Assembly (NCBI GenBank): GCA_037447655.1
Contig: JBBHKE010003519.1
Coordinates: forward strand, 393,362-434,965
Direction: 5' to 3'
Source: Zygnema cylindricum
Taxonomy: Eukaryota; Streptophyta; Zygnematophyceae; Zygnematales; Zygnemataceae
Length of the DNA stretch: 41,604 nt
Below, piece after piece: positions 2,160 through 38,337 of the stretch. Numbering within the stretch: position 1 is the stretch's first letter; each line of letters starts with the position of its first letter. A program made the translations under genes and the position numbers. The notes under the pieces were generated by a model. It made no database searches and was not told the DNA's origin. It saw only the letters and a program-made list of their open reading frames with translations.

Positions 2160-3158
2160 TGTTGAAATAAATAGTTTTTTGGTATTTTCTAGGTCTTAAT
2201 ATAGTAGCGGAAAAAGAAACATGCAGGCAGCTTGACTTCATCTCTTCTCTCTTACCCCCATACTTGTTGTAGTCACTGAAGGAGAGAGAGAGTGATGGAG
2301 CCATGGCTGCATCAGCTCCATAGGCAGGGTTAGAGAGTGACCTTAAGTCACTCCCTACAAAAAGGTTGAGTCCAGCAGGACTCGAACCCCCGCCCGGTAG
2401 AGCGTGGCGTAGCCGTCCACTGTAACCAGTCTGTCGTAGATGTTTGCTAAAGTATATAGGGTGTGATTTATATTTAAACGATATTAGGTCCCCTGAACCA
2501 ATTAACAGAAATATAAATGTAACATCATAGAACAGGGTAAGATTCAGTGCGAACGAGATCTCGCACGAAACAAATGAATCTGACATTTGTTTCGAAGGAC
2601 GATATTTAATGCCGGTTCTTATCCAACGGCCTACGTCTTTGCCGAGATCCTGGAAATGTCACTTTGGCGTTTTGTGACGTGGCATGACCTGGAGCCACGT
2701 GGAAGGATGACATTTGGTCGTTGGAAATCCGAGGAATGTACGGACAAGTGAAAAGCCGACACGCGTCCACTTAATAGCCTTGTCGTACATAGGCCGTACA
2801 AAAGGTACACCGGCAATAGTATTTTTTTGGTATGGTACAGTAATCTGATTAGTCCGTACTTCAATAGATAGAAGTTATTAGCGGGAATCAAGACTTCAAA
2901 AATTTTGGTAGGTAGTCACCTCTCCCTTTGAGAGTGTGTACAAATTAGCATTTTTTACTGCCTCATAACTTATCGCCTGGTTGGGCGTTTTCAGAGATTC
3001 TTTTTCCTACAGACTCAAGGGAGTCCAGGTTGCACAGGGGTGCATCAGATTGTCAACCTGTCTGCTTGGGTAGCAAGGGTTGCCATTAAAAGTGGGTTAG
3101 TTAATAACTATCTAGGGGCTTTTGAATTCTGTAGTCTAATGGAGGACACAGAATTCTA
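2160..3158 (+). repeat. 3' LTR of element 1 (family A)
   Basis: About 1.0 kb, beginning TGTTGAAATA after the polypurine tract and ending near ATTCTA; the right edge is set by homology to the other LTRs, where a conserved ATGGAG lies 20 nt before the end. It contains an antisense tRNA-like module (2362-2439), an 11-bp inverted repeat of CGAAACAAATG (2566-2576 with 2584-2594), the G-box CCACGTGG (2695-2702), ACGCGT, a CTCTC..GAGAG hairpin and a GACTC..GAGTC hairpin. The terminal CA has become TA. Confidence 0.85.
2362..2439 (-). other. tRNA-like module in LTR (antisense to element)
   Basis: On the minus strand there is a tRNA D-arm/A-box-like stretch, GACAGACTGGTTACAG, followed about 35 nt later by GGTTCGAGTCC, a perfect match to the Pol III B-box consensus GGTTCGANTCC. 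The distance and order are those of a tRNA gene. A full acceptor stem and a normal 7-nt anticodon loop are not visible, so this is tRNA-derived rather than a functional tRNA. Equivalent modules occur at the same place in every complete copia LTR here. Confidence 0.65.
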
Positions 3159-3199
3159 GTGTGGAGTGAAGCAAAAAATAGACTAGAAAATAAGGGGAG

Positions 3200-4215
3200 T
3201 GCTAAAAAAGGATATTTTATATTCTATCTTTTTTTGTCTATGGTTATTGTGTAGTTCTCATACTTGTCGTAGTCACTGAGAACTGGCAGCAGCCATGGAT
3301 GTCTCACGCAGATAAGGAGACTAGCAAAAGATAAAGCCTCTGCAAAAGATATGAGAACTGGCAGGCAGCCATGGCTGTCTCACGTAGATAAGGAGACAGG
3401 CAAAAGACAAAGCCCTTGCAAAAGAAATCCTGTTGACTGCAAGGATTGATCCTTTGAACTACAAGGTAAATATCGTACGGCGTAACGATGTGCCTTATCC
3501 AATAAGTCTTGATAAAACGTTACATAAGTTGTATATGATAAATATTTAAATAATGACGCAACGACACATACGAAACAAAATGAATGTGAAACATACAGTA
3601 TCGCACGAAATACTGTACTATACGAAAAGACATTTAATTTTCAACAGACGAAATCAAATGTCGTGCGCGATCGACGGCTCGCAGAGGAGCCGAAATTTCA
3701 AAGTGGACATTCGGCGGTTTGCAAGCCAATGTCAGAGGACGACACGTGGCTTGATGTGGTTGGACAATAGATACTACGGGGGGAGCAACTGCCGCTCAGG
3801 AACTGACACGCGTCAGCGGAGCGGCCATGTCGTACTATGGCCGTTCAAGAAGTACACTGGTACATGTACCTTCTTGTACCTTACACTCATTTGATTGGTT
3901 AGTGTAAACTAGTAGTAGGTTTAGAGAGGGAGCTTAAGACTTAGAAAAAATCAAGGTAGCCGCCTCTCTCCCAAAATGCTTCGGTATTTACAGGCCATCT
4001 TTGGCCGGCCATAACTTAATGCTCGGGTGAGCAATTTCATTCATTCTTTGTGCTGCGGACTCAAGGGAGTTTGGGCTACACAGAGATGTAGTCGATTAGA
4101 GTTTTTGCGTGCCAATGTGGCACTTATTCATTGCCAAAGTCAAAAGTGCAAATATTATCCTAGAGGCTCCATGTAACTCGACATTTTGTGGACCAATGGA
4201 GGTCACAAAATTACA
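3200..4215 (+). repeat. 3' LTR, family B
   Basis: 1016 bp, TG...CA ends. It contains an antisense tRNA-like module, a diverged CGAAA-type inverted repeat, an ACACGTGG box near 3738, ACACGCGTC near 3808, the CTCTC region near 3964, a TGCTCGGGTGAGCA hairpin near 4019, and the GACTCAAGGGAGT hairpin near 4060. The conserved ATGGAGGTCACA (gag start in the 5' LTR) is at 4196, 20 nt from the end. Confidence 0.82.
3436..3514 (-). other. tRNA-like module in family B LTR (antisense)
   Basis: Minus strand reads AAGACTTATTGGATAAGGCAC (A-box/D-arm-like, closest to the tRNA-Arg D-arm pattern CCTAATGGATAAGGCG) and, about 40 nt downstream, GTAGTTCAAAGGATCAATCC, a T-arm/B-box-like sequence with a 4-nt expansion. 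It occupies the same relative place as the module in family A but resembles a different tRNA. Confidence 0.55.
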
Positions 4216-5253
4216 TAATTTGCTTACAACTTTGTGAATTTGCAAAGGAAGAGAACGCAAAATAAAGATTTTGTGTGGGATGAAGTTGTGGTTTGACGAG
4301 CAGGGCAAAGTGTTAAAGCGGAGGAATTTTCCATACTCCCCCTAAGCTTGCATTCTTAAGGTCGTCTCTCCAATATTGAGTTTGACGCTTTGATTGTGAT
4401 GTCTCTACTGGCTACAAAGGTTGAGGGTTTGATCAATGTCAAACTATTTCTTCTATTATCTTATAAAAAAAAAGGTATTGTAAAAGTTTAATTATGACAC
4501 TTAAAATTGATTTTAAAATATTACATTTTTTATTCTAAATAACAATTGTTTAAAATGATTAAACCATTGGGATCAAGCTTTTTTCCAATCTTTTTTGCGT
4601 CTCGTGTCTATTATTTAGAAAATGCATCCTTTTTTGAGCAAACTGTACTATAAAGTGAAATTAGCACCAATTTTCTCCCTAGCGTATGAAAGATTGTAGA
4701 AAATGAAAATGTTCCCATGAAATCATCAGTCTTTATAAACCTTTTTTACAATAATCAATGCAATCTTTTTTATTACCTAAGTGTTGTTATTGTCACCGAT
4801 TATGGAATAGCGAAGTTGTGAACAAGGTACAGTAAGGTACATTGTGAATCGGTACTAGTGTTAATAACAATTAGTCGGTGCCCCTAAATCACGCCCCATG
4901 AACTTACAATAAAATTAATAATAATATTTTCATGTGCCTCAATATAGGTGCAGTATGACGTGTCAAATCACAGTAAATCATGAGGTAGTTAAATCGTTAA
5001 CTATTTCTTAATGTTAAAATACGTGCGTTAGATGATATAAATTTAGAGCAAAAGTGCATGTTTGCGAGGTAACTTTGTCCCCATTATAAAGCGCAGTCAG
5101 ATTTGATAGATTGTAATATCAAAAACAATCTGCGCGAACCTATTGTTAAATGTTCAAACGGCAACTATGTCAACACATTATTTCGAAGTGCGATAGACTG
5201 AGTATAGTGGCTACATTATAGGAATGTGTATCCAATGTAAGGATATCTATATT
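4216..5253. other. No gene seen; AT-rich spacer with a mariner-MITE-like end
   Basis: No open frame with recognisable similarity. Positions about 4826-4890 (TACAGTAAGGTACATTG ... GTCGGTGCCCCTAAA) resemble the left end of the TA-flanked MITE at 29505-30103, but I do not find a matching right end nearby, so it may be a truncated copy. Confidence 0.5.
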
Positions 5254-6299
5254 AATAGTGATCAGTATTAATGTTATGTTGGATTAACCCATCGGACCCA
5301 GAATAGTGTTCGTAAAAGCTATATGTTTTCCTACACTAATGATTCTTTTACAATAACAACAATTCACGGTGTTGCTTAATGTCCATCCTTTCAAAGTCAG
5401 ACTCGGTTAAAAGATTGATTAAAGTCGCAAAAAAATGGATTTATAGCATATTTGTTCAAATAGCATAGTACGCACGAAACGAAAGCGTAAATAATATATG
5501 CATTTCACATTGAACAATTTTAAAAATTCGTTAAAATGCGTTCTTGATTATGTATTCCTACTACTCCGTACATTTTTCAAAATTTGAATTTTTCATCTGC
5601 CGTAGTTTGTACATTTTTTGTTTGATGATCGTTTTCCAATTGTAAGAATTTAAATAGCTATTGCCCTCCATGTGTGTATCGGCTCTTCAACATCAATTGA
5701 TTAACGACTGTTAGACTGTAGGGTTAATATGCAATCCAGACAAATACTACATTTTTGTTTTTTTCATATTTTTTGTCTGCCTAAGACTATTTGACAGCCA
5801 ACCATGGCTTTCTCTCTCCATCTCCCTAAGAGTCTACAATTGCTTAAATTCAGGCATCTAGGGATAGATGCTTCTAGCGCGGTTCATAAATGCTTTGACA
5901 CTGGCTTCAATGGCAGTTTTAGTGGCCTTTTCTGTGGCATCAACAATGGCGGCTTCCCTCTAGAAGAGTTTTAATGGCGATTTTTCTATACATATTAGAA
6001 AAGAACAATCGTAGAGAAATTTATACATACCGCGCTCAAATGGCGCAACTTCTTTTAAAAAAAAAAAAAACAGTTTCGGTACAAGTAACGTACAATTTCC
6101 CGTACAAAAAATACTAACCAAATTATAACGAAAAGTTGAAAACTCACGAATAATACATAGGAATAGTCAAAAATGGAAAAATTGCACCGAATTGAACAAC
6201 AATGCTTTATAGTCAACGACACTTCTTAATTCAAACTCGCGTCAACAATTCAAATGAATCATGTGAAAAAAAATAGGAAAACAACAATTATGTACTTTC
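5254..6299. repeat. Repeat R, copy 1 (1.05 kb, non-coding)
   Basis: Runs from AATAGTGATCAG to TGTACTTTC and is repeated, at roughly 92-94% by eye, at 12507-12709 joined to 18899-19739. It contains CGCACGAAACGAAAGCG, an A-run at 6057-6070 and no coding potential. No terminal inverted repeat or TG/CA LTR ends are apparent. It abuts the left edge of element 2 exactly where R copy 2 abuts the right edge. Confidence 0.8.
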
Positions 6300-7300
6300 A
6301 GCTTCTTAGATTTATAAAGATATTTTCTAGGTCTAAATATATCACTAGAAAAGAAAAGAAAAGGGCGTAAATCCTGCCTCCACCTCCTCTCTCTAACCAC
6401 CATACTTGTTGTAGTCATCGAAAGATAGAGGGGGTGGTTGAGCCATGGCTCGCTTAGTTAACTGGCAGGACTAAAGAGTGACTTATGTCACTATCAACAA
6501 AAGGTTGAGTCCAGCAGACTCGAACCTCCGACCGGTAGAGTACGGCGTAGCCGTTAGCTCTATCCAATCTGTCGTAGAAGTCTGTTAAATTACATGGGGT
6601 GTGATATATATTTAAACATGTACATGGTCTTGAAACTGATTAACTAAAATGTGAACAAAGGAACATAGAACTAGTCAAAGTTTCAGTACGGACGTCATTT
6701 AGCACGAAACAAATGAATCGGACATTTGTTTCGACGGTAGACATTTAATGTCGGATTTAATCCGACGGCGTCTATCACAGCCGAGATGGCGGAATGGTCA
6801 CTTTTGGCGTTTATGGACGTGGCATGACCTACCGCCACGTAGAGGGATAACATTTGGTCCCAAGAATTCCGTGGAGCATACGGACGAGTGGAATGGTGTC
6901 ACGCGTCCATTCAGTGGCCTTATCGTACACAGGCCGTACAGAAAGTACATCAACCGTAGTACATTTCTATACTTTATAGTTGTGTGATAGGTTCGTACTT
7001 CAGGAGATAGGGGTTGTGAGAGGGGTTTAGGACTAAGTAAATTTGGTAGGTCGACACCTCTCTCTTAGAGAGCTTTGTATAATATTGGCATTTTTGCCAG
7101 CTCATAACTTATCAGCTGGTTGGCCGTTTTCAGTGATTTTTTTTGCTGCAGACTCAAATGAGTCCAGGTTGCATAGGTTGCTATCAGACTGTCAGTTTGC
7201 CTTCGTGGGCAGCACTGGTTGTGGCTTGAAGTGGGTTAGTTAAAAACTATCTAGAGGCTTCTTGAATTCTGTAGTCCAATGGAGGACACAGATTTTTTTG
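6300..7300 (+). repeat. 5' LTR of element 2
   Basis: Matches 11498-12506. It contains the antisense tRNA-like module (6503-6579), the perfect 11-bp inverted repeat CGAAACAAATG/CATTTGTTTCG (6705-6715 with 6723-6733), ACGCGT at about 6902, the CTCTCTCTTAGAGAG hairpin near 7062 and a conserved ATGGAGGACACAGA at 7279 that is the presumed gag start. The left end is degraded. Confidence 0.87.
6503..6579 (-). other. tRNA-like module in element 2 5' LTR (antisense)
   Basis: Minus strand: CGACAGATTGGATAGAGC closely follows a tRNA D-arm/A-box (compare the generic AGCTCAGTTGGATAGAGC), then an ACGGCTACGCCGT hairpin where the anticodon arm would be (only a 3-nt loop), then GGTTCGAGTCT as B box. This is the best-preserved A-box in the window. 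Confidence 0.65.
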
Positions 7301-11497: not shown

Positions 11498-12506
11498 TGT
11501 TGGAACTATTAGATGTATAAAGGTATTTTCTAGGTCTAAACATATCATTATAAAAAGGAAAAGAAAAGGGCGGATAGCTTGCCTCCACCTCCTCTCTCTA
11601 ACCACCATTCCTATTGTAGTCATTGAAGGATAGAGAGGGTGGTTGAGCCATGGCTGCCTTAGTTAGCAAGTGGGACTAAAGAGTGACTTATGTCACTCTC
11701 AACAAAAGGTTGAGTCCGGCAGGACTTGAACCTCCGACCGGTAGAGTACAGCGTAGTCGTTAGCTCTATCTAATCTGTCGTAGAAGTCCGTTCAATTACT
11801 TGGGGTGTGATATATATTTCAACATGTACATGGTCCTGAAACTGATTATCTGAAAGGTGAACAAAGGAACATACAACTAGTCAAAGTTTCAGTACGGACG
11901 TCATTTCGCACGAAACAAATGAATCGGACATTTGTTTCGACGACCGACATTTAATGTCGGATTTATTCCGACGCCGTCTATCAGTGCCGAGATCGCGGAA
12001 TGGTCACTTTTGGCGTTTATGGACGTGGCATGACCTGGCGCCACGTGGAGGGATAATATTTGGTTGCACGAATTCAGGGGAGCATACGGACAGGTGGAAT
12101 GGAGACACGCGTCCACTCAGTGGCATTATCGTACACAGGTCGTACAGAAAGTACATTCGCCGTAGTACCTTTCTCTACCTTTACAGTTGTGTGATTGGTT
12201 CGTACTTTAGTAGACAGGGGTTCTGAGAGGGGTTTAGGACTTAATAAGTTTGGTAGGTAGACACCTCTCTCTTAGAGAGCTTTGTATAAAATTGGCATTT
12301 TTGCCGGCTCATAACTTATCGACAAGTTGGTTGTTTTCAGTGATTCTTTTTGTTGCGGACTCAGGGGAGTCCAAGTTGCACAGGGGTGCAGTTAGACTGT
12401 CAGTTTCCCTTTGTGGGCAGTAGTGGTTCTTGATTGCAGTGGGTTAGTTAAAAACTATTTACAGGCTTCTTGAATACTGTAGTCCAATAGAGGGCACAGA
12501 ATTGCA
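11498..12506 (+). repeat. 3' LTR of element 2
   Basis: 1009 bp from TGTTGGAACT to ATTGCA. It contains the tRNA-like module (11708-11784), the inverted repeat CGAAACAAATG (11911-11921) with CATTTGTTTCG (11929-11939), G-box CCACGTGG (12041-12048), ACGCGTCC (about 12107) and the U5 hairpins. The gag ATG equivalent at 12487 is mutated to ATA. Confidence 0.9.
11708..11784 (-). other. tRNA-like module in element 2 3' LTR (antisense)
   Basis: Minus strand: CGACAGATTAGATAGAGC (A-box-like) and GGTTCAAGTCC (B box) at 11722-11732. The B-box change from CGAG to CAAG is still within consensus. Confidence 0.62.
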
Positions 12507-12709
12507 AATAGTTATCAGTATTAATGTTATGTTGGATAAACCCATCGGACCCAAAATAGTGCTCGTAAAAGCTATATGTTTTTCTACACTAATGATTCCT
12601 TTACAGTAACAACAATTCATGGTGTAGCTTAATGGCCATCCTTTCAAAGTCATATTCGGTTAAAAGATTGATTTTAAGTCGGCAAAAAATGGATTTATAC
12701 CATAGTTGT
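12507..12709. repeat. Repeat R, copy 2, left part
   Basis: Begins AATAGTTATCAG directly after the element 2 LTR and matches 5254-5460. It ends with GTTGT, the target site duplicated by element 3; the repeat resumes at 18899. Confidence 0.85.
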
Positions 12710-13595
12710 TGAAATTCTGTGGTCTCCATTGACCCACAGAATGAGCAGCCTATGTAAAGCCTCTAGGATAATATTTGCCCCTTCTACTTTCCCGCTGAAT
12801 AAGCGCCGCCCAAGCACACAAACATTCTGACCACTCTCACCGTTGTGAGGACAAGACTCCCCTGAGTCAAACGCAAAAAGAATCACTGAATTTGCTCACC
12901 CGAGCAGTAAGTTATGGCTAGTCAAAGATGACCTTTATAGTTACAAGCTCTCTTAGAGAGAGAGGTACCTAAATATTACTAAGTCTTGGTCTGCCTACTC
13001 ACGACTACCTACTATTAAACCCTAGTCCAATAGGAACACTATAAAGTACAAGAAGGTACAATGGGCGATGTACTTATTGTACAACCATTGTACAACAAGG
13101 TCTATAAGGTGACACCTGTCATATCGAAAGCCATGGTTCCTCCTCCCATCTTCTCCGATATCAAATAATGTGGCGCCACGTGGCACCGCGTGACGCTATA
13201 TCCATATGCCGCCAAAAAGCTCACTTCGCGTGGCGGCTATAATGCCGGCCGTCCGATCAAAACATATTTTACACGGTTCAGATTCGCGTACATGGAGAAA
13301 TTGCTCATTTTGGTTAGTCGGTTGTTAATTAGCTGTTTCGTTAATGTTTATATATTTATGAAACCCGTCACGTGTATCGTTTCGTAACGCCTTAATGGTT
13401 AAGGCGTAGGCTATAAAGTATCTAGAGGTCACAGGTGTCTACACCTAGGCATCATTTTAGCCAAAATACCCTTAACAGCAAAAACTGCCACTTTCTAAAT
13501 ATGGCGGCAGCCATGGCGCGCCTTTGATCCTTACTCTCTTTCTTTAAAACAAAACTAAAATAGGGAAGTGAACTATTAATTACCTCTTTTCAACA
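12710..13595 (-). repeat. 3' LTR of element 3 (family C)
   Basis: In element orientation it runs from TGTTGAAAAG (13595) to CAGAATTTCA (12710). It contains G-box CCACGTGG (13176-13183), a tRNA-like module on the opposite strand (13385-13450), the CTCTCTTAGAGAGAGAG hairpin near 12950 and GACTC..GAGTC hairpin near 12850-12866. Confidence 0.93.
13385..13450 (+). other. tRNA-like module in element 3 3' LTR (antisense to element)
   Basis: Plus strand reads ACGCCTTAATGGTTAAGGCG, like the D-arm of tRNA-Ser/Leu (GCCGAGTGGTTAAGGCG), and is also a perfect 9-bp palindromic stem. The expected B box about 35 nt on (AGGTCACAGGTGTCTACACC) is degraded here but recognisable in the other LTR. Confidence 0.5.
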
Positions 13596-13608
13596 CTCCC
13601 CTTAATTC
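13596..13608 (-). other. Polypurine tract of element 3
   Basis: Reverse complement AATTAAGGGGAG lies directly before the 3' LTR of this minus-strand element. Confidence 0.85.
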
Positions 13609-13834: not shown

Positions 13835-14608
13835 TCACGAAAAACATTTTGTGAACCCAAGTTCTTCAAGAAGAGATTTAACCCACATTAATTCTTTGGT
13901 GGCAGCACAGGAAGCCATGTATTCAGCCTCCATAGTGGACTGAGCAACTACTTTTTGTTGCTTGCTACTCCAACAACATGCACCGGATCCAATTTGCAAC
14001 ACATATCCAGTCGTACACCTCCTTAAAGGCACATCTCCATAACTAGCATCACTCCAAGTGGTGATGTCAGTGTGCTCCCCTCCCAAATGCAACCATAATT
14101 CCCTTCTCCCCACCAGATACCTCTTCACCCTTTTGGAAGCCTCCCAATCTCTCTTTCTTGGTTCATTTAGATTTCTACTAAGGACACCTACAGCTGCAGC
14201 TATATCCGGACGGGTACAGTTCATAAAATAAATTAAACTGCCTACAATCTGCCGATAAGGGATATTTTCCATAAATTTTCTTTCTATCTCGTCCATCTCA
14301 TCATTAATGATGAATATTCCTCCCTCTTCACTCCCCTCACTCACTTTCTTCAAATCCATGGGAGTAGGACATCCGTTTGCTTTCTCTATTTGAAATTTTT
14401 TTAGCATATTATCGATTGCTTCTTTTTGAGTGAGTTTTATAATTCTATTCCCTCTATCTCTCTCCCTCTGAATTCCCAAAATGTACTTTGCTTCGCCAAG
14501 ATCTTTCATATCAAAACTGCTTCTAAGATCCGTTTTTAGTTTGTTAATTTTATCTAACGACTTGCTTAAGACCAACAAATCATCCACATAAATAGCAATA
14601 AATATCAC
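13835..14608 (-). CDS. copia RT C-terminus and RNase H (element 3 pol, second part)
   Basis: 257 codons in the same frame as the large ORF upstream, separated from it by a single TGA at 14654-14656 and about 15 more codons. It starts at the catalytic box IAIYVDDLLVLSKS (both Asp kept), then SFDMKDLGEAKYILGIQRERDRG, the connection TRPDIAAAVGVLSRNLNEPRKRDWEA, and RNase H motifs WSDASYGDVPLRRCTTGYV and QSTMEAEYMASCAATKEL (Asp and Glu kept). It ends abnormally at LGFTKCFS by frameshift. The first codon listed is only where the open frame can start; in the ancestral element this was an internal part of one Gag-Pol polyprotein. RT and RNase H convert element RNA to cDNA in cytoplasmic particles. 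Confidence 0.88.
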   Translation of the reverse strand: MIFIAIYVDDLLVLSKSLDKINKLKTDLRSSFDMKDLGEAKYILGIQRERDRGNRIIKLTQKEAIDNMLKKFQIEKANGCPTPMDLKKVSEGSEEGGIFIINDEMDEIERKFMENIPYRQIVGSLIYFMNCTRPDIAAAVGVLSRNLNEPRKRDWEASKRVKRYLVGRRELWLHLGGEHTDITTWSDASYGDVPLRRCTTGYVLQIGSGACCWSSKQQKVVAQSTMEAEYMASCAATKELMWVKSLLEELGFTKCFS

Positions 14609-14653
14609 TCCATTCTCATCCTCAAATAAATATATAGAGTGATCTGAACTAAT

Positions 14654-17600
14654 TCATATATACCCCAAACCGGTCAGAAATTCGTCGAGCTTTATATTCC
14701 ACTGTCGCGGGGCTTGCTTAAGCCCATAGAGTGATTTTATCAGTTTGCAAACTTTGTTTTCTTCCCCGCTTTCCACGAATCCTTTCGGTTGCCTCATGTA
14801 AATTTCTTCTTCCAACTCTCCGTGCAAAAAGGCAGTTTTAATATCCATCTGGTGGATTTCCATATCCTCCGCTGCGGCTATACTTAAAAGGATTCTAACA
14901 AAAGGAAATCTGACTACAGGTGCAAAGGTTTCTTCGTAGTCTATCCCCTCTTTCTGTGTATAACCTTTTGCAACTAACCTAGCTTTGTACCTCTCAATGG
15001 TATTATCCGGGTTTAATTTAAGTTTAAACACCCACTTACATCCGATCGGTTTTCGGTCCGGTGGACAATCTACCAACTCCCATGTATTGGCTTCCATGAT
15101 AGAGGCCATTTCTTCATTTATAGCTGTGATCCACCGGCTACTTTCTGGAGTGTTTATGGCCTCTAAGTATGTTTGAGGTTCATCTGGGTGAGACATCTTT
15201 GTGAGTTCGTTATTTACTTGTCTTTCTTGAAGTCGTTTACTACTTCTTCTTCCCCCTTCAAAATCGGACGCCGGTATGGAAGGCATTCTTGGGTTTCGTT
15301 TTGGGAAATTTTCAGCTTCCCTATCTTCGAATTCCGGTGTCTCATCAAGTTCCTCATCGGTTTCCACTTCGTATTGTGGCGTTGCCTCAGATGTTGTCCT
15401 TTCCTCCTTCTCCTTTGGTAGATCTGCAGATTTTTCTTTTTCTCCCTCTTCCTTCTCTTCATTTTCAAAGTCAAAGTCAGAAAACTGATCCGTTTCAAAT
15501 CTGATTTTGACTTCCTTATTATATTTGAATGGATCAATGGACTTCTCTTCATTCATCACCACTATGTGTTTTACCAAAATTATATCTCTCTTTTTCAAGT
15601 CATACACTCGGTATCCTTTTGTGCTCTCATCATATCCTACAAGATATCCTGGTTTCCCTCTTCCCTCTAACTTCCATTTAGTCTTATCGGAATCCAAACT
15701 GTAGACTTGACTTCCGAACACTCTCAAACTAGACAAATCAGGCTTTCTTCCTGTCCACCTCTCATACGGAGTTTCCTCCTTATTTGCTGAAGTTAGGTCT
15801 CTATTTTTGATGAAATTAGCATAGTTCATAGACTCAGCCCAAAATTGCAGCCCTATCCTCTTATCACTTAACATACTTCTGGACATATCTCCTAAAGTTC
15901 TATTCACTCTTTCTGCTACTCCATTTTGTTCCGGATTATAGGGAACAGTTTTCTCATGATGAATTCCTTCTTCTTTAAGATATTCTTCAAAATCCCTTGA
16001 GTTGTATTCTTTCCCATTATCACTTCTTATCTCTTTTATTGAGGTTTCATGTAGCTTTTCACTCCATACTTTATACTTTTTGAAACATCTTAATACCTCT
16101 GACTTATGTCTGAGAAAGTATACCTTCGTGTATCTAGACCAATCATCTGTGATAGTTAACATCCATCTCTTCCCCCTATGTGAGGCATACCTAGCAGGTC
16201 CCCAAACATCAGTGTGAACTAGATCTAATACTTTCTCTCTCCTAAATGTGGTTGCCTTTGGAAATGGAAGTCTATGAATCTTCCCTTGGGCACATCCACT
16301 ACAATCATCAAAGGTCTCATCATCTTCAAAAGTAATACCCTCCACTATTCCATTTTTCTTCATTTTCTTTAATCTATCAAGATGCACATGCCCCAACCTT
16401 TTATGCCAAAGCATCATCTCACTTGCACACGAGTAGAGAACACTCTTTTCATTGCAAAGTAGAATTTTGAACATTCCTTGACTGCCCTTCTCAGCTATGA
16501 AATAAACCTCATTATCAAAGCTTGCTGTGAAGATTCCTTTCCTAGTTCCTGTTTCAAACTCCTTTTCATCTAGGACAGCTATTGAGACTAGGTTCTTGCT
16601 AAGTTGTGGAATGTAAAGAACGTCTGAGAGTGTTACAATTGAGGCCTTTCCATCAACTAGAACCTTCAAGTCAACAGTTCCAACAAGACTTGTGGTTTCT
16701 ACTCTACCATCTCCGTACTCTATCTCAACTGTTGGGATCTTTCTCAGTTTAGTGAACCATCGCTTATCTTTGCACATATGCATTGAAGCCCCTGAGTCTA
16801 TGATCCACCCATCGTCGGGTGGATCCCTCTTACCTCCGAAAGCACACTTTTTTCTCCGTGGAATGTCGACATGCTTTTCAGTGTTTTTCGGATTAAGGAG
16901 AAGCTCCTCAAGCTCCTCTTCAGGTTTAGTTTTTTCTTCCACTTCCTCATCGCGAACTTGAGTCAGGAAAGCCTTTTTCTTTCCTCCGTCCTTTGAGGTT
17001 CCTTGACCATCTTCCAGTCGAAGATTTGCAAGTCTGACACAATCTGCCATATAGTGTCCCGGTTTCTTGCAGAAGTGACATAATCCTCCTTGAGAAGTTC
17101 CTCTCCCCTGTCTATCAAATCTGCCACCTCCTTGTCCTCTTCCACCAAAGTTTCGATAAGGATCTTTCCCTCTCTCCTCATCACGCTTCCGCCAATCAGC
17201 TCCTGCAGACAATGCTTGAACACTTGGACTCCCTCTCCTAAGCTCTATGGTGCTTTCTTTCACTAAAATCATTCCCACAGTGTCATCCCAATTCCAATTG
17301 CTATCTCCTATGTCCTGCAATCGGTTAATGATATTCTCATACTCTTCAGGTAGTTTCATCATTAATGTGTTCACTCTTTGTCTCTCAGACCATGAGTTAC
17401 CTGCACTCTCTAACTCTCCAAACAATGCTCCTAAATCATTACAATAATTATCCATACTTCCTCCCTTATAAGTATAAGCTGCAATCTTATTTTCTGCCAA
17501 CTGTTGCTGCTGCAATGATCCACTCTTATATTTGTTAACTAGTGATATCCAAATCTGAGATAACGACTTGACATGCATAAGTGGAATGGCAATGCCCTTT

Positions 17601-18031
17601 GCTACACTTTTAAGAATTAAGAGCTTAGCAACCTTGTCTTTGTAGTTCCACTTTTCATACTCTGATCTTTCGGTCTGAACCCTTGTCGTTGCTGCTCGTG
17701 GTGCTGCTGCCGGTATCGCCTTCGGCAATGGTGTTACTTGAGTTGCAACTCCTTCCTTTTCTCCTTCCATGAAAATCTCTTCTCCGTCCTCATCTTCATC
17801 CTTGGTGATGGTGGCAGATGTTCTACCAACTGTAGAGGCGGAGGTGCCAGAAAAACGTGTCCCTCCAAACCCAGGTGGAGGTGGGCATCGAATTTGTCCA
17901 GACACTATGCCCCATAGATGCTTCTCAAATAGTTCTCCCTCCATCATCATTTCCCAATAAAGAAAGTCTGATCCATCAAATATGGGCACCCTAGAGGGTG
18001 GGCCCATAACCTGAAATTCTGTGGTCTCCAT
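14654..18031 (-). CDS. copia Gag-Pol polyprotein, gag through RT (element 3)
   Basis: 1125 codons open from an ATG that lies 20 nt inside the 5' LTR and reads through the primer-binding site (MG at residues 9-10 onward is encoded by it). Order: gag N-terminus VPIFDGSDFLYW (15-26); gag core about 120-260; zinc knuckle C318-X2-C-X4-H-X4-C331; aspartic protease D412-S-G-A; pre-integrase zinc finger H543, H548, C577, C580; integrase core D608, D671, E707 (DD35E); acidic linker about 850-915; RT from about 965 with WELVDCPPDRKPIGCKWVFK, D1063 in QMDIKTAF and [10 protein letters not shown]. It stops at TGA after GLGYI, before the YVDD box that lies in the next segment. All catalytic residues seen are intact. 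Copia elements normally make one Gag-Pol ORF, so this TGA is a lesion or, less likely, a read-through stop. Confidence 0.93.
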   Translation of the reverse strand: METTEFQVMGPPSRVPIFDGSDFLYWEMMMEGELFEKHLWGIVSGQIRCPPPPGFGGTRFSGTSASTVGRTSATITKDEDEDGEEIFMEGEKEGVATQVTPLPKAIPAAAPRAATTRVQTERSEYEKWNYKDKVAKLLILKSVAKGIAIPLMHVKSLSQIWISLVNKYKSGSLQQQQLAENKIAAYTYKGGSMDNYCNDLGALFGELESAGNSWSERQRVNTLMMKLPEEYENIINRLQDIGDSNWNWDDTVGMILVKESTIELRRGSPSVQALSAGADWRKRDEERGKDPYRNFGGRGQGGGRFDRQGRGTSQGGLCHFCKKPGHYMADCVRLANLRLEDGQGTSKDGGKKKAFLTQVRDEEVEEKTKPEEELEELLLNPKNTEKHVDIPRRKKCAFGGKRDPPDDGWIIDSGASMHMCKDKRWFTKLRKIPTVEIEYGDGRVETTSLVGTVDLKVLVDGKASIVTLSDVLYIPQLSKNLVSIAVLDEKEFETGTRKGIFTASFDNEVYFIAEKGSQGMFKILLCNEKSVLYSCASEMMLWHKRLGHVHLDRLKKMKKNGIVEGITFEDDETFDDCSGCAQGKIHRLPFPKATTFRREKVLDLVHTDVWGPARYASHRGKRWMLTITDDWSRYTKVYFLRHKSEVLRCFKKYKVWSEKLHETSIKEIRSDNGKEYNSRDFEEYLKEEGIHHEKTVPYNPEQNGVAERVNRTLGDMSRSMLSDKRIGLQFWAESMNYANFIKNRDLTSANKEETPYERWTGRKPDLSSLRVFGSQVYSLDSDKTKWKLEGRGKPGYLVGYDESTKGYRVYDLKKRDIILVKHIVVMNEEKSIDPFKYNKEVKIRFETDQFSDFDFENEEKEEGEKEKSADLPKEKEERTTSEATPQYEVETDEELDETPEFEDREAENFPKRNPRMPSIPASDFEGGRRSSKRLQERQVNNELTKMSHPDEPQTYLEAINTPESSRWITAINEEMASIMEANTWELVDCPPDRKPIGCKWVFKLKLNPDNTIERYKARLVAKGYTQKEGIDYEETFAPVVRFPFVRILLSIAAAEDMEIHQMDIKTAFLHGELEEEIYMRQPKGFVESGEENKVCKLIKSLYGLKQAPRQWNIKLDEFLTGLGYI
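17999..18011 (-). other. Primer-binding site of element 3 (half-tRNA type)
   Basis: In element sense GGTTATGGGCCCA, immediately after the 5' LTR. It is the exact complement of TGGGCCCATAACC, the anticodon arm and loop of plant-type initiator tRNA-Met. Drosophila copia and yeast Ty5 prime from this region using a tRNA cleaved in the anticodon loop. Confidence 0.8.
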
Positions 18032-18898
18032 TGACCCACAGAATGAGCAGCCTATGTAAAGCCTCTCGGATAATATTTGCCCCTTCTACTTTCCCGCTGA
18101 ATAAGCGCCGCCCAGGCACACAAATATTCTGACTACTCTCACCCTTGTTAGGACAAGACTCCCTTGAGTTAAACGCAAAAAGAATCACTGAATTTGCTCA
18201 CCCGAGCAGTAAGTTATGGCTGGTCAAAGATGACCTTTATAGTTACAAGCTCTCTTAGAGAGAGAGGTACCTAAATATTACTAAGTCTCGGTCTGCCTAC
18301 TCACGACTACCTACTATTAAACCCTAGTCCAATACGAACACTATATAGTACAAGAAGGTACAATGGGCGATGTACTTATTGTACAACCATTGTACGACAA
18401 GGTCTACAATGTGACACCTGTCATATCGGAAGCCATGGTTCCTCCTCCTATCTTCTCCGATATCAAATAATGTGGCGCCACGTGGCACCGCGTGACGCTA
18501 TATCCGTATGCCGCCAAAAATCTCACTTCGCGTGGCGGCTATAATGCCGGCCGTCCGATCAAAACATATTTTACACGGTTAAGATTCGCGTACATGCAGA
18601 AATTGCTCATTTTGGTTAGTCTGCTGTTAATTAGCTGTTTCGTTAATGTTTATATATTTATGAAACCCGTCATGTGTATCGTTTCCTAACGCCTTAATGG
18701 TTAAGGCGTGCTATATAGAATCTAGAGATCAAGGTTCAAATATAGACCTAGGTATCATTTTAGCCAAAATATCCTTAACTGCAAAAGCTGCCTCTTTCTA
18801 AATATGGCGGCAGCCATGGCGCGCCTTTGATCCTTACTCTCTTTCTTTAAAACAAAACTAAAATAGGGAAGTGAACTATTAATTACCTCTTTTCAACA
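18012..18898 (-). repeat. 5' LTR of element 3 (family C)
   Basis: 887 bp, TG...CA ends, about 95% identical to 12710-13595. It carries the better-preserved tRNA-like module, G-box CCACGTGG (18478-18485) and, in its last 20 nt, the gag start codon (18029-18031). Confidence 0.94.
18688..18753 (+). other. tRNA-like module in element 3 5' LTR (antisense to element)
   Basis: Plus strand has ACGCCTTAATGGTTAAGGCG (Ser/Leu-type D-arm) and, 25-35 nt later, AAGGTTCAAATATAGACC (18731-18748), a B-box/T-arm-like sequence (consensus GGTTCAANTCC). No full acceptor stem is visible. Confidence 0.6.
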
Positions 18899-19739
18899 GT
18901 TGTTCAAATAACATTGTACGCACGAAACAAAAGCGCAAATAATATATGCATTTCACATTGAACGATTTAAAAATTCGTTAAAATGCGTTTCATATTATGT
19001 ATTCGTACTACTTCGTACATTTTTCAAAATTTGAATTTTTTATGTGCTGCAGTTTGTGCATTTTTCGTTTGATGATCGCTTTCCAATTGTAAGTATATAA
19101 ATAGTTATTGCCCTCAATGTGTGTATCGGCTTTTCTACATCAACTGGTTACGGACGACTGTTAGACTGTAGGGATAGTATGAAATCTAGACAAATACCTC
19201 ATTTTTGTTAGAGTCATATTTTCTGTTTGCTTGAGACTATTTGACAACCAGCCATGGCTTTCTCTCTCTATCTCCCTAAGAGTCTATTATTGCTTAAATT
19301 TAGGCATCTAGGCATAGATTCTTTTGGCGGGTTTTGTAAATATTTCGACACCGGCTTTAATGGTAATTTTAGTGGCCTTTTTCTGTGACATCAGCAACGG
19401 CGGTTTCCTTATAGAAGATTTTTCATGGCGGCTTTTCTATACAAATTAGAAAAGAACAATTGTAGAGAAATTTATACATATTGCGCTCAAATGGTGCAAC
19501 GTCTTTTAAAAAAAAATATGTACAGTTTCGGTATAGGTTATATACAATTTCTCGTACAGAAAATAATAACCAAATTATAACAAAAAGTTTAAAACTCACG
19601 AATAATACGTAGGAATAATCAAAAATGAAAAAATCGCACGAATTGAACAACAATTATTCATAGTCAACAACACTTCTTAATTCAAACTCGCGTCAACAGT
19701 TCAAATGAATCATGCGAAAAAAAAAGGAAAACAACGATA
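18899..19739. repeat. Repeat R, copy 2, right part
   Basis: Resumes with GTTGTTCAAATAACAT after element 3 and matches 5453-6299, ending at TGTACTTTC. With 12507-12709 it rebuilds a full 1.04-kb R, so element 3 is a nested insertion. Confidence 0.87.
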
Positions 19740-19800
19740 ATGTACTTTCGACCCTGCTTGGAGTTAAATTAATAATTTGAACCTATCGAACCATTACGTG

Positions 19801-22285: not shown

Positions 22286-22287
22286 TA

Positions 22288-23128: not shown

Positions 23129-23565
23129 ATGCTGGTCTGGTGAATAGGCAAAATATCTTCAGGGGAAATCAAAGGGGTGGACATAGTGTTAATGCAGGAA
23201 ATAAATTTAACAATAGAGGGGGGTACATTAAAAGTCCTAAACCGAACATTAATGCTCAGAAGCCTAACCTTACCATCCCCACATGCACTATTTGTCAGAA
23301 AAGGGGTCATAGAGCATTTGAGTGTGCACAATTGAAAAAGATTAACTGTTGTAACTGTGGAGAGGATGGACATTTTAGTAGAGAGTGCACAAAACCCAAA
23401 AAGAAAGTCAGTTGTTTCAAATGTGGAGGTCCAAATCATTACGCTAAAGACTGTACAGATAAAGGTTCTCTCAAAACAGTCGATGTAAATGAAGGTCTCC
23501 AAGAGGATATTGCATTATATCTAGCTGAGCAGGAAGCCCAGGAGGTGGGAAATGGAAAGGACTAA
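23119..23565 (+). CDS. gag nucleocapsid part with three zinc knuckles (gypsy)
   Basis: About 147 codons, open from 23119 with no ATG needed if it was once internal to gag. A Gly/Asn/Arg-rich basic region is followed by three CCHC knuckles: CTICQKRGHRAFEC, CCNCGEDGHFSREC and CFKCGGPNHYAKDC (all C-X2-C-X4-H-X4-C). Nucleocapsid binds and packages element RNA. The frame ends in TAA at 23563-23565, just after a GGGAAAT slippery heptamer; pol continues in the -1 frame. Three knuckles is more than the one usual for plant gypsy gag. Confidence 0.85.
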   Translation, partial: EGLNAGLVNRQNIFRGNQRGGHSVNAGNKFNNRGGYIKSPKPNINAQKPNLTIPTCTICQKRGHRAFECAQLKKINCCNCGEDGHFSRECTKPKKKVSCFKCGGPNHYAKDCTDKGSLKTVDVNEGLQEDIALYLAEQEAQEVGNGKD

Positions 23566-27095: not shown

Positions 27096-27266
27096 GTTCA
27101 CAGATGGGTAATAGATTGGGTTGGTCAACGGTTCAAGGTAGGTGATACTATATTCTGGCAAGTGCATTATCTAGGAAGGCCTGAGGATGAGTTGGCTTTA
27201 GAGGATAAAAATTATGAGTTTTTACAGAGGTACTGGAGGGATAATAATATAGAAGTCCCGTCTTGA
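27096..27266 (+). pseudogene. Chromodomain-like C-terminal tail of integrase (gypsy)
   Basis: After the TAA the same frame stays open for 56 codons: HRWVIDWVGQRFKVGDTIFW, QVHYLGRPEDELALEDKN and FLQRYW. The layout (HR, a hydrophobic strand, VHYLGRPEDE, then a helix ending YW) resembles the chromodomain-type tail of chromoviruses (pattern HR...yLVKWkGyp.e..tWEp), but the usual aromatic W of the WxGY and WEP positions is altered. Likely targeting module; weak by eye. Confidence 0.5.
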
Positions 27267-27302
27267 TAATTAAAGGTGTTTTAATTGAGGTCAGTTAAAA
27301 AT

Positions 27303-27315
27303 AAAGAGGGGATGA
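27303..27315 (+). other. Polypurine tract of gypsy element
   Basis: AAAGAGGGGATGA directly before TGTAACAG of the 3' LTR. Confidence 0.85.
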
Positions 27316-28283
27316 TGTAACAGTAATAGCGGATCGAACTTGTTTATAAATGGGTATTTAGGTGTTAAGATTATAGAGTACTAAAATAGGTAGACATCCG
27401 CGAAAGAATCATGCTATTTGGAGTTATATTTTAAAAGTTATAGCGATGGGTGTATTTAGGTGACAGCGTGGGGTCTAAATAACAAGTGGGTATCATTGAA
27501 ACGGGTTAAGGGTCAAATTATTACCGAAATTACGCGCGTACGTTTCATAAAGTTCTAATGAAACGTTTAGTATGCACAGTGCTTCGTTTCGTACAAATTT
27601 TAGTACGAAACGTCACTTTCACTTAAGGGAATTTCGTAGGAAGTTTCGCGTGCGAAATTTGTTACGCACGCTCGTGCGAAGTCGCGTTTCGTTTGGCGCG
27701 CAATTTTGCACGTAAATGTTACGTAGTGAAACGTAACGTTTGATTGGTTAGTAAATCGCTAAGTAGTTAGTAAGAGATTTCGCACGTTTTTGCATTGGTC
27801 AGTCTGAGTCTTTGCTGATCAATGATTGGCCCAGGTAAAAGCCTGTTAAAAACGGAGCATTGACTCTGGCATGGCGAGTCCAGGGCGATGATGGATAAAT
27901 AGTGAAGTGTAAGAGGAGAGTAGACATCTTTTCCTTTGGAGAAGTTTGTGGAAATTCCAGCTGATCTTGGTCCTGAGCGATTAATACCAAATTGGAGAAA
28001 ATGCATTTTTGCATTGAAATCTCTTACTAACTAAATAGTGTTTTAGTAGTTAAGAGATAGAATTATTAAGAGTGGAGAGTAGAGGAAACACTTTAAATTG
28101 AAGGGTTGAGCCACGAGGGCAAGAGACCAAGCTTATGTTATGTGGACAGAAGCTTCTTCTAATTTAAAGTTATCCTTATGTGAGTGTTTTCCAATGTGGA
28201 TGTGTACATTCCAATGTGTGGAATGTGTGGTTGGAATTATTTGTAGTAATGGGATTTTCTGAAAGGTAGGAGATCCTGTTACA
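27316..28283 (+). repeat. 3' LTR of gypsy element
   Basis: 968 bp, TGTAACAG to CTGTTACA, followed by the duplicated target aagct (28284-28288). The three U3 inverted repeats are unchanged relative to the 5' LTR. Confidence 0.95.
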
Positions 28284-32727: not shown

Positions 32728-32735
32728 AAAATTAG

Positions 32736-35329: not shown

Positions 35330-35770
35330 TGTACAACAAAGTAATATGATTCGTGCCGTACATCAATAGATAGAGTTTTAGAGAGAGATAGGACTTAGAA
35401 AAATTGGTAGATAGGACCCTCTCTCCCAGAGAGCTTTTGTACAAAGAGGTCAACTTTGACCCACCATAACTTACTACTCAAGGGAGCAAATTCAGAGATT
35501 CTTTTTGCTATAGACTCAAGAGAGTCTTGGCTTTTGTAAAAAAAGGTTAACTTTGACCCACCATAACTTACTGCTCAAGGGAGCAAATTCAAAGATTCTT
35601 TTTACTATAGACTCAGGGAGTCTTGCCTTCACAGGGGTAAAGGTGTTAATTTTTTGTCTTCCAGGGTGGCAGCTACTCTGGCTGAAATATAACGAGGTCA
35701 GGGTTATCCTAGAGGCTTAGTGTGAGGTGCCTACTCTGAGGACCTATGAAGGTCTCAGAGTAACATCATC
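35330..35770 (+). repeat. LTR fragment, family D copia-like (R/U5 part)
   Basis: It shares the LTR downstream block of the other copia families: CCGTACATCAATAGATAG, GGACCCTCTCTCCCAGAGAG, CCATAACTTACTGCTC, GATTCTTTTTGCTATAGACTC. The region 35436-35531 is repeated in tandem at 35532-35630 (96-bp period). It ends in an ATGAAGGTCTCAGAGTAACA equivalent of the conserved ATGGAGGTCACA end. Upstream LTR and internal region are absent. Confidence 0.65.
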
Positions 35771-36539
35771 TATTGAGGTCTTAGAGTTACATCCTAGTTT
35801 ACTAAAGCGTCATTTCGTGGTATTCAAAAATGAATCTAACATTAGAAATCGTACGTCGTCCTGAAGTTTAAATATTTGTACATGTATGACTAATTGACGT
35901 GTCAGAATAATCCCGTTTTTTGAGCGCACGATCCTATGTGTGTGCGTTTGATTTAATTATTTTTTGTAAATGTTTCACTTGAAAAGGTACATTTATGTAC
36001 AGTTTGACATTGACCCTTCACCACACTTTTTAGATATTATTGTACTTTCATTGTTAACGCTATTTTGTACGGTACAAATATTAACGTCAAGGAAAATTTA
36101 AAATCATGTATCCTATTTGAGGAAAAAAATCAAAATTTTAAGAACCCAAATTAGTGACTTTGACATTAATAATGATTCGCGGTGTAGTTGTGTCTTTTTT
36201 TCACATTTTAAGTACAGATTAGTAAAAGCTACGTACCTTTGATTTTATGCTCAAACCGTTAAACAACTAACATAGGACAAATAAGGCCGTACCACACTCA
36301 GGGCAAAATTTTTTACTTCAGACCGAATCCGGAATTGATAGTCCAAATCGGATCTACTAATCTATCAAAGGTACATAGGTGGCACTGAAATGCCGAACCT
36401 AGACCTACGGTAATTAATGAACCGGAAGCTTGTTGGAGCTAAACTAAAGCCCGACTGATGTCTAACAGCAAAATCTAGATTGCAATCCGAAAAGTTATAT
36501 GCAACTCCACAATGTACACTGTGCTAGAGGTGTGGGAAA
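35771..36539. other. No gene seen
   Basis: AT-rich; GTAC-containing words; a 27-bp imperfect repeat of the LTR end follows at 35770-35795. Nothing else supportable. Confidence 0.45.
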
Positions 36540-37229
36540 CTGCTTCACGGTGGAGAAACTCCAATATTGGGAGCCGAATAACTTAGTTGTCCAACCTCCG
36601 CTAGGCGTACACCAAATTGAGTCACGCTCTGTGGGAAAAATTGAGGAATTCGGTACGGTTTGTTAGACCTCAATATCCGTACGTTGATGACCGTACGGGA
36701 AAAGGGGTGCCAATAATCTAAGATATATGTGGGTGTGCCGGGAAGGCACACGAGCTTGATAGCTCTCGAGCTTGCCGGATGATAAGAGGGGAAGGGTCTA
36801 GGATCCAGAGAGTTGTCGAAGGGAGACCTGCAAAGAATCCCAGATGCGAATGCTTCCCTGGGAAATGGTCATGTCCCGTTCTTCCCCTATCCCTCCGGTG
36901 TCATGAATGGAAACGTAAAGAAGATTGAGACATGCCGAATAGATGGGTGCTGGAGAAAGCGAAGGGAAAAGAAAAACAAGATAACCCCTCTCCTTCCCCC
37001 TTTCCCCATGAGGTCAGAGGGAAAGGGATAGGCAGATATCCCAGTTTCCCCCCATCTTAGTCATCAAGACTAAAAAATAAATCTGTTCCGCCTCATTCGC
37101 ATTTCCTGCAAAATCAGAGGGCAAGGGGTTAAGGACGAGAGTCCGAAAGGATGGAAGGAAGGCCTGATGACAACAGTAGTCAAATCGATTGCAAACTATT
37201 ATAGGGCCCGGCTGAGATGGTTTGAGGCA
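36540..37229. other. GC-richer, hairpin-rich block right of gap
   Basis: It contains GTGTGCCGGGAAGGCACAC and GAGCTTGATAGCTC hairpins (about 36732-36766) and a segment (about 36815-37045) related to 34310-34510: both have TGCAAA..., GATGCGAATGCT and later GATGGGTGCT or GATGAGTGCT, then a C-rich and a G-rich run. No protein recognised. A structured RNA or intron remnant is possible. Confidence 0.4.
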
Positions 37230-38337
37230 GGCTAAAAGTGATATTTTCTATTCTACCTTTTTTTTTAGTCTTGCAGTTCATATACTTGTTGTAGTCACTG
37301 AGAATTGACAGGAAACCATGGCTGCCTTAGACAGATGAGAAGATAGACAAAAAGACAAAGCTCATGCAAAAGTATTTGCCACATAGAGGGTTTGATCGTG
37401 TAACCTCATGACGAAGGCCGTAAAGAAAAATGCGTACGCCTTATCCGTTAGGTCTTGATGAATCGATACATACATTATGTTTCATAACTATTTAAAGATG
37501 TCATGGTGAGATATTCTTTTTAGCGACTTACAAAACGAAACGAAACATGGAACGTGTGGTACCGCACGAAATGCAGTATCGCACGAAATAAATGAAACAG
37601 ACATTTGATGTCGACGGACGAAATTTAATGTCGCGATCGACGGCTCGCGAAGCAAGAAGAAAATTTAAGAGGTCAACACGAAATGTTGACCATTGAAATT
37701 CAACAGTCAACACGGAACTTTGACTGGTTAAATTCAAAGGTCAACATTTATTCGGCGCGCCTTCGATCGAACGGCTGCAATTGATCACCGTGAAAAGAAC
37801 GGACGGCACGCGTGAGTGTTAGGATGCCGACTATCTGGGAGAAGTACAGCAAAATGGGAGGAAATGGCACGTGGCATCATCCTATAGGATGCTGGAAGTG
37901 AAAAGGGACAAAATGTGATTGAGCTATTTTGCCACGTGGCAGACCGGGAATGGTGCCGAATATATCCGTACATAAAGTACGGCGGCTGTTGTACTTTGTA
38001 TGCACAATAATTAAGGTACTTTACTTTTATTTGTTTAGAGTAGGTATTAGGAGTTTTCAAGACTTAGAAAAATATTGAAAAGTCCTCTCTCCCAGAGGCC
38101 ATCTATACAAATATGTTGTCTTTGATCTGCCATAACTTAATGCTCAGGTGAGCAAATTCAGTGATTCATTTTGCAACGCACTCAAGGGAGTCCAATCTAC
38201 ATAGGGGTGTTGTTAGCCAGAGTTTTTCAGTCCCAGGGTGGGACTTATCTATTGTCAAAGTCAACGGTGCATATACTATCCTAGAGGCTTTACATAAGCT
38301 CAACATTCTGTGTACCAATGGAGGTCACACAATTATA
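37230..38337 (+). repeat. 5' LTR of element 4 (family B)
   Basis: About 1.1 kb. It contains the antisense tRNA-like module, a diverged CGAAATAAATG...CATTTGATGTCG inverted repeat near 37577, two ACGTGGC boxes (about 37867 and CCACGTGG at 37932-37939), ACGCGT near 37809, hairpin TGCTCAGGTGAGCA near 38140 and GCACTCAAGGGAGTCC near 38177. ATGGAGGTCACA at 38318 is the presumed gag start, 20 nt before the LTR end. Confidence 0.87.
37386..37464 (-). other. tRNA-like module in element 4 LTR (antisense)
   Basis: Minus strand AAGACCTAACGGATAAGGCG is very close to the tRNA-Arg D-arm (GTGGCCTAATGGATAAGGCG); the T-arm-like region about 45 nt on, GAGGTTACACGATCAAACCC, is a poor B box. It matches the module at 3436-3514. 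Confidence 0.55.

Follow-up and report, generated by a model that had tools for sequence, protein, structure and literature searches.

We analyzed a 41,604-nt stretch of the Zygnema cylindricum genome (GCA_037447655.1, contig JBBHKE010003519.1; hereafter the window) and found that all seven of its complete or nearly complete copia long terminal repeats (LTRs) carry a tRNA-gene-like unit in antisense orientation. The window contains one gypsy element together with copia elements whose LTRs fall into several related types; the seven LTRs are A1, B1, A2 and A3 (one element), C1 and C2 (one element), and B2. The unit lies 148-314 nt from the LTR start, and its parts follow the order of a plant tRNA gene: an AT-rich box, a tRNA D-arm, a B-box (lost in C1) and a run of Ts. 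We propose that it is a tRNA-derived type-2 promoter, competent for RNA polymerase III (Pol III), that would act in antisense on its own LTR. We hold the proposal to be evenly poised between right and wrong.

An initial annotation of the window had described seven antisense modules in the 5' part of the LTRs, and all of them lie where, and on the strands, it had placed them. In all seven units, a run of A/T bases lies between 56 and 39 nt ahead of the point where the D-arm GG ends; with this GG set as tRNA positions 18-19, the AT box falls near -30. The B-box follows 32-46 nt past the D-arm, and TTTT (T4) 9-18 nt past the B-box position in 7/7 LTRs, giving 79-98 nt from the predicted +1 to the T-run. 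B-box scores out of nine are 9 in A1 and A3, 8 in A2, 7 in B1, B2 and C2, and 6 in C1. Upstream AT/TATA sequence, a B-box at tRNA spacing behind a D-arm, and a T-run together make up the layout of a Pol III type-2 gene. Plant tRNA genes are described as having an upstream AT-rich or TATA sequence, a CAA motif, A and B boxes, and poly(T) (PMC11700998). In the host's own tRNA genes, AT runs reach into the -43 to -20 region in 12/12, and a TATA-like word occurs at -40 to -19 in 11/12.

We scanned both strands of the window (83 kb) for the composite unit, defined as a D-arm of at least 8/9, a B-box of at least 7/9, T4 and an AT box, and detected five sites, every one in these LTRs (B1, A2, A3, C2 and B2). 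One hundred Markov shuffles gave a mean of 0.03 sites (maximum 1), and the reversed sequence gave 0. A1 enters the set only with the D-arm threshold at 7 or more, and C1 only with the B-box threshold at 6 or more. Because the D-arm consensus was partly picked after the data had been seen, we took 24 E. coli K-12 tRNAs as an independent yardstick. By Smith-Waterman alignment, the four best of 1384 window tiles fell in the three A modules (scores 50-54; A1 51, A2 54), and all four match argQ, tRNA-Arg(ACG); outside the modules, tiles scored 39 at most. The gypsy LTRs gave no significant tRNA match.

Copies of the unit recur across the host assembly (352,776,454 bases searched, 2689 contigs): the exact TATA/D-arm/B-box pattern occurs 718 times in these 352.8 Mb, and 0 times in a backward control; a repeat with the pattern itself written in reverse gave identical counts. 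LTR searches retained the best 40 candidates each, so that copy numbers from them are lower bounds. We read 20 A2-type, 29 B2-type, 29 C-type and 20 A1-type copies on the antisense strand only, scoring the AT box and T-run in the A2-, B2- and C-types. At the D-arm and B-box thresholds of the composite test, the D-arm is present in 19/20 A2-type, 27/29 B2-type and 29/29 C-type copies, the B-box in 19/20, 23/29 and 29/29, the AT box in 19/20, 26/29 and 28/29, and T4, within 5-26 nt behind the B-box, in 20/20, 27/29 and 29/29. Ten B2-type copies have a B-box score of at least 8 (GGATCAAATCC, or GGATCAAACCC in one). Among the 20 A1-type copies, the B-box scores 9/9 in 15 and at least 8 in 19, and the D-arm at its fixed distance scores 9/9 in 14 and 8/9 in 4 and is shifted by one base in 2. 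Since C-type copies keep the B-box throughout, mostly as GGTTCAAATCT or GGTTCAAACCT, the weak B-boxes of C1 and C2 reflect local decay. The module is antisense in 10/10 LTRs that were found by both the LTR search and the two-strand pattern search. These copies and the composite test bear out the annotated tRNA-like D-arm/B-box module, at a fixed place in every copia LTR of the window.

A probe for a class related to family C gave 199 matches with at most three mismatches, some of them true tRNA genes, and 0 backward. Among the 100 of these matches that were listed, 25 same-strand steps measured 3025-3119 bases (21 contigs), whereas pairs of exact-pattern matches of family C lie about 5.3 kb apart and gag-pol elements span about 5.2-5.35 kb from module to module. 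We infer a shorter class of about 3.1 kb from this spacing only; it is probably non-autonomous. On contigs C205, C326 and C1349, three or four module matches stand in a row at steps of about 3.1 kb, which suggests tandem arrays of a short LTR element.

We compared the modules with a pool of 46 tRNAs, comprising the 24 from E. coli and 22 host tRNAs taken from at least 63 matches, with no Arg(ACG) gene among those 22. Scores rose above the shuffle 95% level in 22/22 A2-type, 20/20 A1-type, 31/31 C-type and 17/30 B-type rows (the A2-, B- and C-type rows include the window copies). A chance likeness, or an artefact of the initial annotation, is thus barely credible. Two results do point that way: against the E. 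coli tRNAs alone, single window copies of B and C are not clearly distinct from shuffles of the module (p = 0.11 for B1, 0.05 for B2, 0.24 for C1 and 0.48 for C2), and a plain A-box plus B-box scan of the window does not single out the modules. At the level of the families, chance is already refuted by the 31/31 C and 42/42 A rows above shuffle level and by the 718 exact matches against none backward.

The modules most likely derive from tRNA-Arg. With the pool of 46, the nearest tRNA is E. coli tRNA-Arg(ACG) in 41/42 A rows; a search of the host genome with E. coli argQ gave nothing, and Arg(ACG) is a provisional isotype for type A. With the E. coli pool only, Arg tRNAs are best for 22/22 A rows and 21/30 B rows (14/30 B rows beat the shuffle 95% level). 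A 26-nt stretch of host tRNA-Arg(TCG), positions 8-33, is matched at 24/26 and 25/26 in two members of the C-related class, at 20/26 in C copies L074 and L076, at 17-19/26 in three B copies, and at 14/26 in A; the best matches in the window are B2 (19/26) and then C1 (18/26). The resemblance of the family C D-arm to Ser/Leu tRNAs, proposed in the initial annotation, is not well supported beside these matches. Its broader claim of tRNA-like modules stands family-wide, while the assignment to different tRNAs is poorly supported, with B and C matching tRNA-Arg(TCG) and A nearest to Arg(ACG).

The modules of different families are also related to one another. The block from D-arm to TATA aligns between B1 and C2 (71 nt, E = 5e-9), B2 and C2 (64 nt, E = 1.7e-8), and A2 and B1 (77 nt, E = 3.5e-5), without gaps for B against C and with one gap for A2 against B1. 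In member C5 of the C-related class, the TATA block is identical to that of family C over the stretch compared. These alignments, with Arg tRNAs best for A and B, speak against the suggestion that the module was kept in place while its tRNA type was swapped; such a swap between families appears unlikely, and one old capture of a tRNA-Arg-like unit would account for the pattern. Some observations favor the swap: C rows are nearest to a host Asn-type tRNA in 16/31 cases, to host tRNA-Arg(TCG) in 12/31 and to E. coli metU in 3/31; A2 and C2 have only a 23-nt stretch in common, at the TATA; and at E<=1 no part of the A1 module aligns with B or C. These points count against a single capture, as does the position of the B-box outside the block conserved between B and C. 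The case for a single capture is weaker for A than for B and C.

That the TATA half is the part common to the families, and the B-box is not, makes a sense-strand alternative real: the conserved block could be the RNA polymerase II (Pol II) core promoter of the element, with the TATA serving the genomic RNA, the D-arm-like stretch acting as an upstream control element, and the tRNA likeness reflecting origin only. The AT box is present in 7/7 window LTRs, the TATA is conserved at 0.995 in C, and a TATA motif is reported in only 22-32% of angiosperm tRNA genes (PMC11700998). This alternative leaves unpredicted the tRNA-like spacing of the B-box and the T4 that follows it, found in 7/7 window LTRs and most sampled copies. 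Further, long cross-family matches resume at about 540-630 of the ~1000-nt LTR and G-box-like motifs precede that point (by eye), so the R region may start near there. We consider a Pol II role for the block possible, if on the unlikely side.

Several results weigh against a working Pol III promoter. The unit's TATA could be a sense Pol II TATA, as set out above. ARAGORN detected no tRNA in the window, and the RF00005 covariance model gave no match at E<=10 in the whole window, nor in single 161-nt pieces around A2, A1, B2 and C2. The sole match of a tRNA-like model was mascRNA-menRNA on A1, at 19.8 bits (E = 0.059), below its cut-off. Single-sequence folding of the modules gave no cloverleaf, and RNAalifold on 26/30 type-B modules gave no consensus structure; by cloverleaf covariance, the units are not functional tRNA genes. 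The textbook A-box is TRGYNNAR..GG. B2 and C2 match it at 6/8, whereas in A1-A3 and B1 it is not recovered in register with the D-arm; by eye, one C-related genome copy scores 8/8. Because only 3/8 host tRNA genes have T4 within 25 nt downstream, the T4 of the unit follows no host rule.

Conservation of the boxes is likewise mixed. In B, conservation is higher in the two boxes (0.877) than across the remaining module (0.749; p = 8e-4). In A this holds only with the TATA and T-run included (p = 0.02), and the difference is not significant for the two boxes of A alone (p = 0.18), for A1 (p = 0.31) or for C (p = 0.062). Measured against the whole LTR, the boxes are no better conserved in A (p = 0.31) or B (p = 0.7), and in C they fall below the LTR mean (0.955 against 0.982). 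In pairwise comparisons of 450 5' windows, the module ranks 1 between A1 and A2, and only 47 for A1-A3, 84 for A2-A3, 177 for B1-B2 and 408 for C1-C2. Among C copies (median pairwise identity 98.3%), variability in 40-nt windows along the LTR peaks in the stretch that separates the boxes and covers the B-box, and T4 (1.0), like the TATA, is near invariant. By the initial annotation, covariance at background, or boxes no better conserved than the neighboring LTR, would refute it; covariance is at background and the boxes are not above the LTR mean, which goes part of the way to a refutation, yet those of B stand above the rest of their module. With no cloverleaf and no common structure, but boxes kept in B, anything that is kept would be promoter signals rather than RNA shape.

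The window copies C1 and C2 belong to a single insertion and have an overall identity of about 95%; in their T-arm part (13400-13460 and 18700-18765), 15/50 columns differ, and the maximum in 5000 permutations was 11. A mutation hot spot or a template-switch event could lie behind this divergence.

The missing fold, box conservation that does not exceed the LTR mean, and a most variable stretch of the C LTR within the module region are also what would be expected of a neutral fossil, an old tRNA or short interspersed element (SINE) insertion that hitch-hikes in the LTR with no present role. We judge this unlikely: in four LTR types whose U3 (the LTR's 5' part) is otherwise divergent, most copies read retain the D-arm and B-box and, in the three types scored for them, the AT box and T-run, and in B the boxes are kept while the bases between them diverge.

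For the antisense Pol III promoter that we favor, we envisage that an ancestral copia LTR acquired, antisense in its U3, a tRNA gene, most likely for tRNA-arginine, or the head of a tRNA-derived SINE, which then passed to several descendant families, gag-pol elements and probably the ~3.1 kb class. What remains would be an AT-rich site for TFIIIB/TBP near -30, a D-arm with a degenerate A-box, a B-box, and a terminator of four or five Ts. TFIIIC and TFIIIB would bind this unit, and Pol III would start an RNA of about 80-100 nt heading away from the LTR's Pol II promoter. The bound complex and the short antisense transcript may then act on the LTR, keeping it open or setting a boundary, to the possible benefit of the element; alternatively, the RNA may act through its complementarity to U3, which the element's RNA carries at its 3' end. 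The unit cannot drive genomic RNA, because it points in the wrong direction and ends within about 100 nt. In one extension of this proposal, the antisense RNA would act against the element's own U3 as a self-specific control of copy number, each subfamily recognizing only itself, like plasmid RNA I. Such self-recognition is conceivable because, as seen in C, the promoter signals persist and the intervening RNA changes faster than any other part of the LTR; we regard it as improbable. If true, it would be RNA I-style regulation carried by an LTR retrotransposon.

Coordinates of the LTRs, the units and associated features are given in Table 1.

Table 1. Copia LTRs, antisense tRNA-like units and related features of the window (PBS, primer-binding site; PPT, polypurine tract; ORF, open reading frame; RT, reverse transcriptase).
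Feature	Position	Strand	Details	Basis
Family A1 LTR	2163..3160	+	3' LTR; its copia element begins before the window	repeat map and LTR alignment
A1 unit	2359..2478	-	TATA 2466-2478; D-arm 2419-2427 (decayed); B-box 2378-2388 (GGTTCGAGTCC); T5 2359-2363	
Family B1 LTR	3201..4220	+	purine-rich PPT-like stretch at 3192 just ahead	
B1 unit	3420..3554	-	TATA 3538-3554; D-arm 3492-3500 (GGATAAGGC); B-like 3442-3452; T4 3420-3423	
Family A2 5' LTR	6291..7298	+	PBS-like motif GTTATGGGC next, at 7302	
A2 unit	6499..6616	-	TATA 6604-6616; D-arm 6557-6565 (GGATAGAGC); B-box 6516-6526 (GGTTCGAGTCT); T4 6499-6502	
Family A2 3' LTR (A3)	11498..12506	+	88% identity with 5' LTR	repeat map
A3 unit	11704..11819	-	TATA 11810-11819; D-arm 11763-11771; B-box 11722-11732 (GGTTCAAGTCC); T4 11704-11707	
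Family C 3' LTR (C1)	12709..13600	-		repeat map
C1 unit	13347..13458	+ (antisense to LTR)	TATA 13347-13359; D-arm 13397-13405 (GGTTAAGGC); B-box lost 13435-13445; T4 13455-13458	
Family C gag-pol	13835..18085	-	two ORFs, 14654-18085 and 13835-14653, broken by a stop in RT	
PBS-like motif GGTTATGGGCCCA after C 5' LTR	17999..18011	-		
Family C 5' LTR (C2)	18010..18900	-		repeat map
C2 unit	18649..18761	+ (antisense to LTR)	TATA 18649-18661; D-arm 18699-18707 (GGTTAAGGC); B-box 18733-18743 (GGTTCAAATAT); T4 18758-18761	
Family B2 5' LTR	37229..38340	+	element continues past the window end; PBS-like motif at 38338	
B2 unit	37368..37496	-	TATA 37489-37496; D-arm 37438-37446 (GGATAAGGC); B-like 37388-37398; T4 37368-37371	

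The C element is a member of the copia superfamily, with gag, integrase ahead of RT (Pfam order Retrotran_gag_2, rve, SH3_retrovirus, RVT_2), LTRs, a PBS-like motif, and on both flanks ACAAC, taken by eye as a 5-bp target site duplication. In a database search, its pol is 59% identical to an unnamed protein. We take the PBS-like motifs at 7302, 17999-18011 and 38338 (GGTTATGGGCCCA or its core) to correspond to the anticodon half of initiator tRNA (tRNA-iMet). Among plants, 3'-truncated primers of this kind are attributed only to several copia lineages (PMC10886601).

Several of the window's copia elements are near neighbors, and yeast Ty1 and Ty3 are described as integrating upstream of Pol III genes via TFIIIB or Pol III (PMC7175516). 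The module might by analogy be a target-site lure, a TFIIIB/TFIIIC site that draws integration of related elements. No aligned A or B window LTR is interrupted by another element near its module, and we consider a lure very unlikely.

Searches of viral and genome collections for related elements found none (one collection match, L001, is a chance match within an ORF), and BLAST searches of phage, plasmid and E. coli genome sequences with the A modules gave chance-level matches only. Elsewhere in the window, the gypsy element (21317-28281) has LTRs that are 98.4% identical and a pol spread over several ORFs, the top match of which is a Closterium protein (47%); like the match of the C pol, this fits a plant-like host. 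Segment 5254-6299 recurs at 12507-12715 plus 18900-19749 and so flanks the A2 element, its second copy being split by the C element. The B1 LTR has a ~75-bp tandem duplication at 3277-3428, apparently missing from many of the B1-type copies located elsewhere in the genome, whose main match begins at query position 152-156, and an isolated U5-like fragment at 35392-35638 forms a ~97-bp tandem duplication. In the B2 LTR, a long imperfect hairpin at 37678-37752, mir-192-like at 29.4 bits and below the model cut-off, lies mostly within a gap of the aligned B1 LTR. In the C1 LTR, 12964-12999 (sense, LTR positions 602-637) resembles E. coli thrU at a borderline level (score 37, p = 0.045); it lies far from the C1 module and is probably due to chance.

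Pol III units within LTRs have precedents. The microRNA clusters of simian and bovine foamy viruses are Pol III units in retroviral LTRs. They resemble the present unit in lying in the LTR of an element that uses Pol II, and differ in belonging to animal retroviruses and in encoding microRNA hairpins that, to our knowledge, are not derived from tRNA-Arg. Plant SINEs derived from tRNA have an A/B-box head of tRNA origin, as here; they are independent elements mobilized by long interspersed elements (LINEs), whereas the module is a fixed part of an LTR. Cassandra, a terminal-repeat retrotransposon in miniature (TRIM), likewise has a plant host and keeps Pol III promoter boxes in its LTR while adjacent bases vary; it differs in being non-autonomous and in having a 5S rRNA promoter in place of the Pol II promoter (PMC10853983). 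No 5S rRNA model was among the nine Rfam matches at E<=10 in the window, so the present elements are not of the Cassandra kind.

Also close in design is Helenus, a TRIM with a tRNA-like sequence in its LTRs, whose author remarks that not a few Repbase LTRs hold part of a tRNA (Kojima 2024, PMC10886601). As described there, Helenus resembles our elements in that tRNA-derived A and B boxes lie within the LTRs, a genome has numerous families, a functional tRNA is mostly absent, target site duplications measure 5 bp in fungi and plants and, in fungi, the PBS is of the anticodon-loop kind. It differs in being non-autonomous and only 311-1263 bp long, and in a Pol III promoter that is considered to work for the element's own propagation (PMC10886601); the units described here are antisense and sit in LTRs of about 1 kb belonging to gag-pol copia elements. 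Set against the features of Helenus (TRIMp3), tRNA-derived boxes are present (the 5' half of the A-box is degenerate in window copies), the C element encodes gag-pol rather than being short and non-coding, and the putative promoter does not read from 5' LTR to 3' LTR, being antisense in 7/7 window LTRs and 10/10 genome LTRs. The word 'antisense' is absent from the main text of the Helenus paper, which argues that autonomous partners of such TRIMs have to rely on Pol II and probably have no long LTR sequence in common with them (PMC10886601). Among titles and abstract openings in the open-licence PMC literature, we found no report of an antisense tRNA-like unit in gag-pol copia LTRs.

Hundreds of such tRNA-like loci could mislead tRNA annotation, and they offer a practicable way to ask whether a retrotransposon is protected, insulated or regulated by DNA that resembles a tRNA gene. 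Pol III promoters carried in LTRs are already known from short non-autonomous elements (Cassandra, Helenus), and have so far been described as replacements for Pol II in these tiny elements; what is new here is the antisense placement in gag-pol elements. Being antisense and followed at once by a terminator, the unit cannot have the role that is known in Cassandra and suggested for Helenus, the making of the element's own RNA. A promoter placed antisense in gag-pol copia elements, its pattern found at hundreds of places, must therefore have a job other than making genomic RNA, or be a very persistent passenger.

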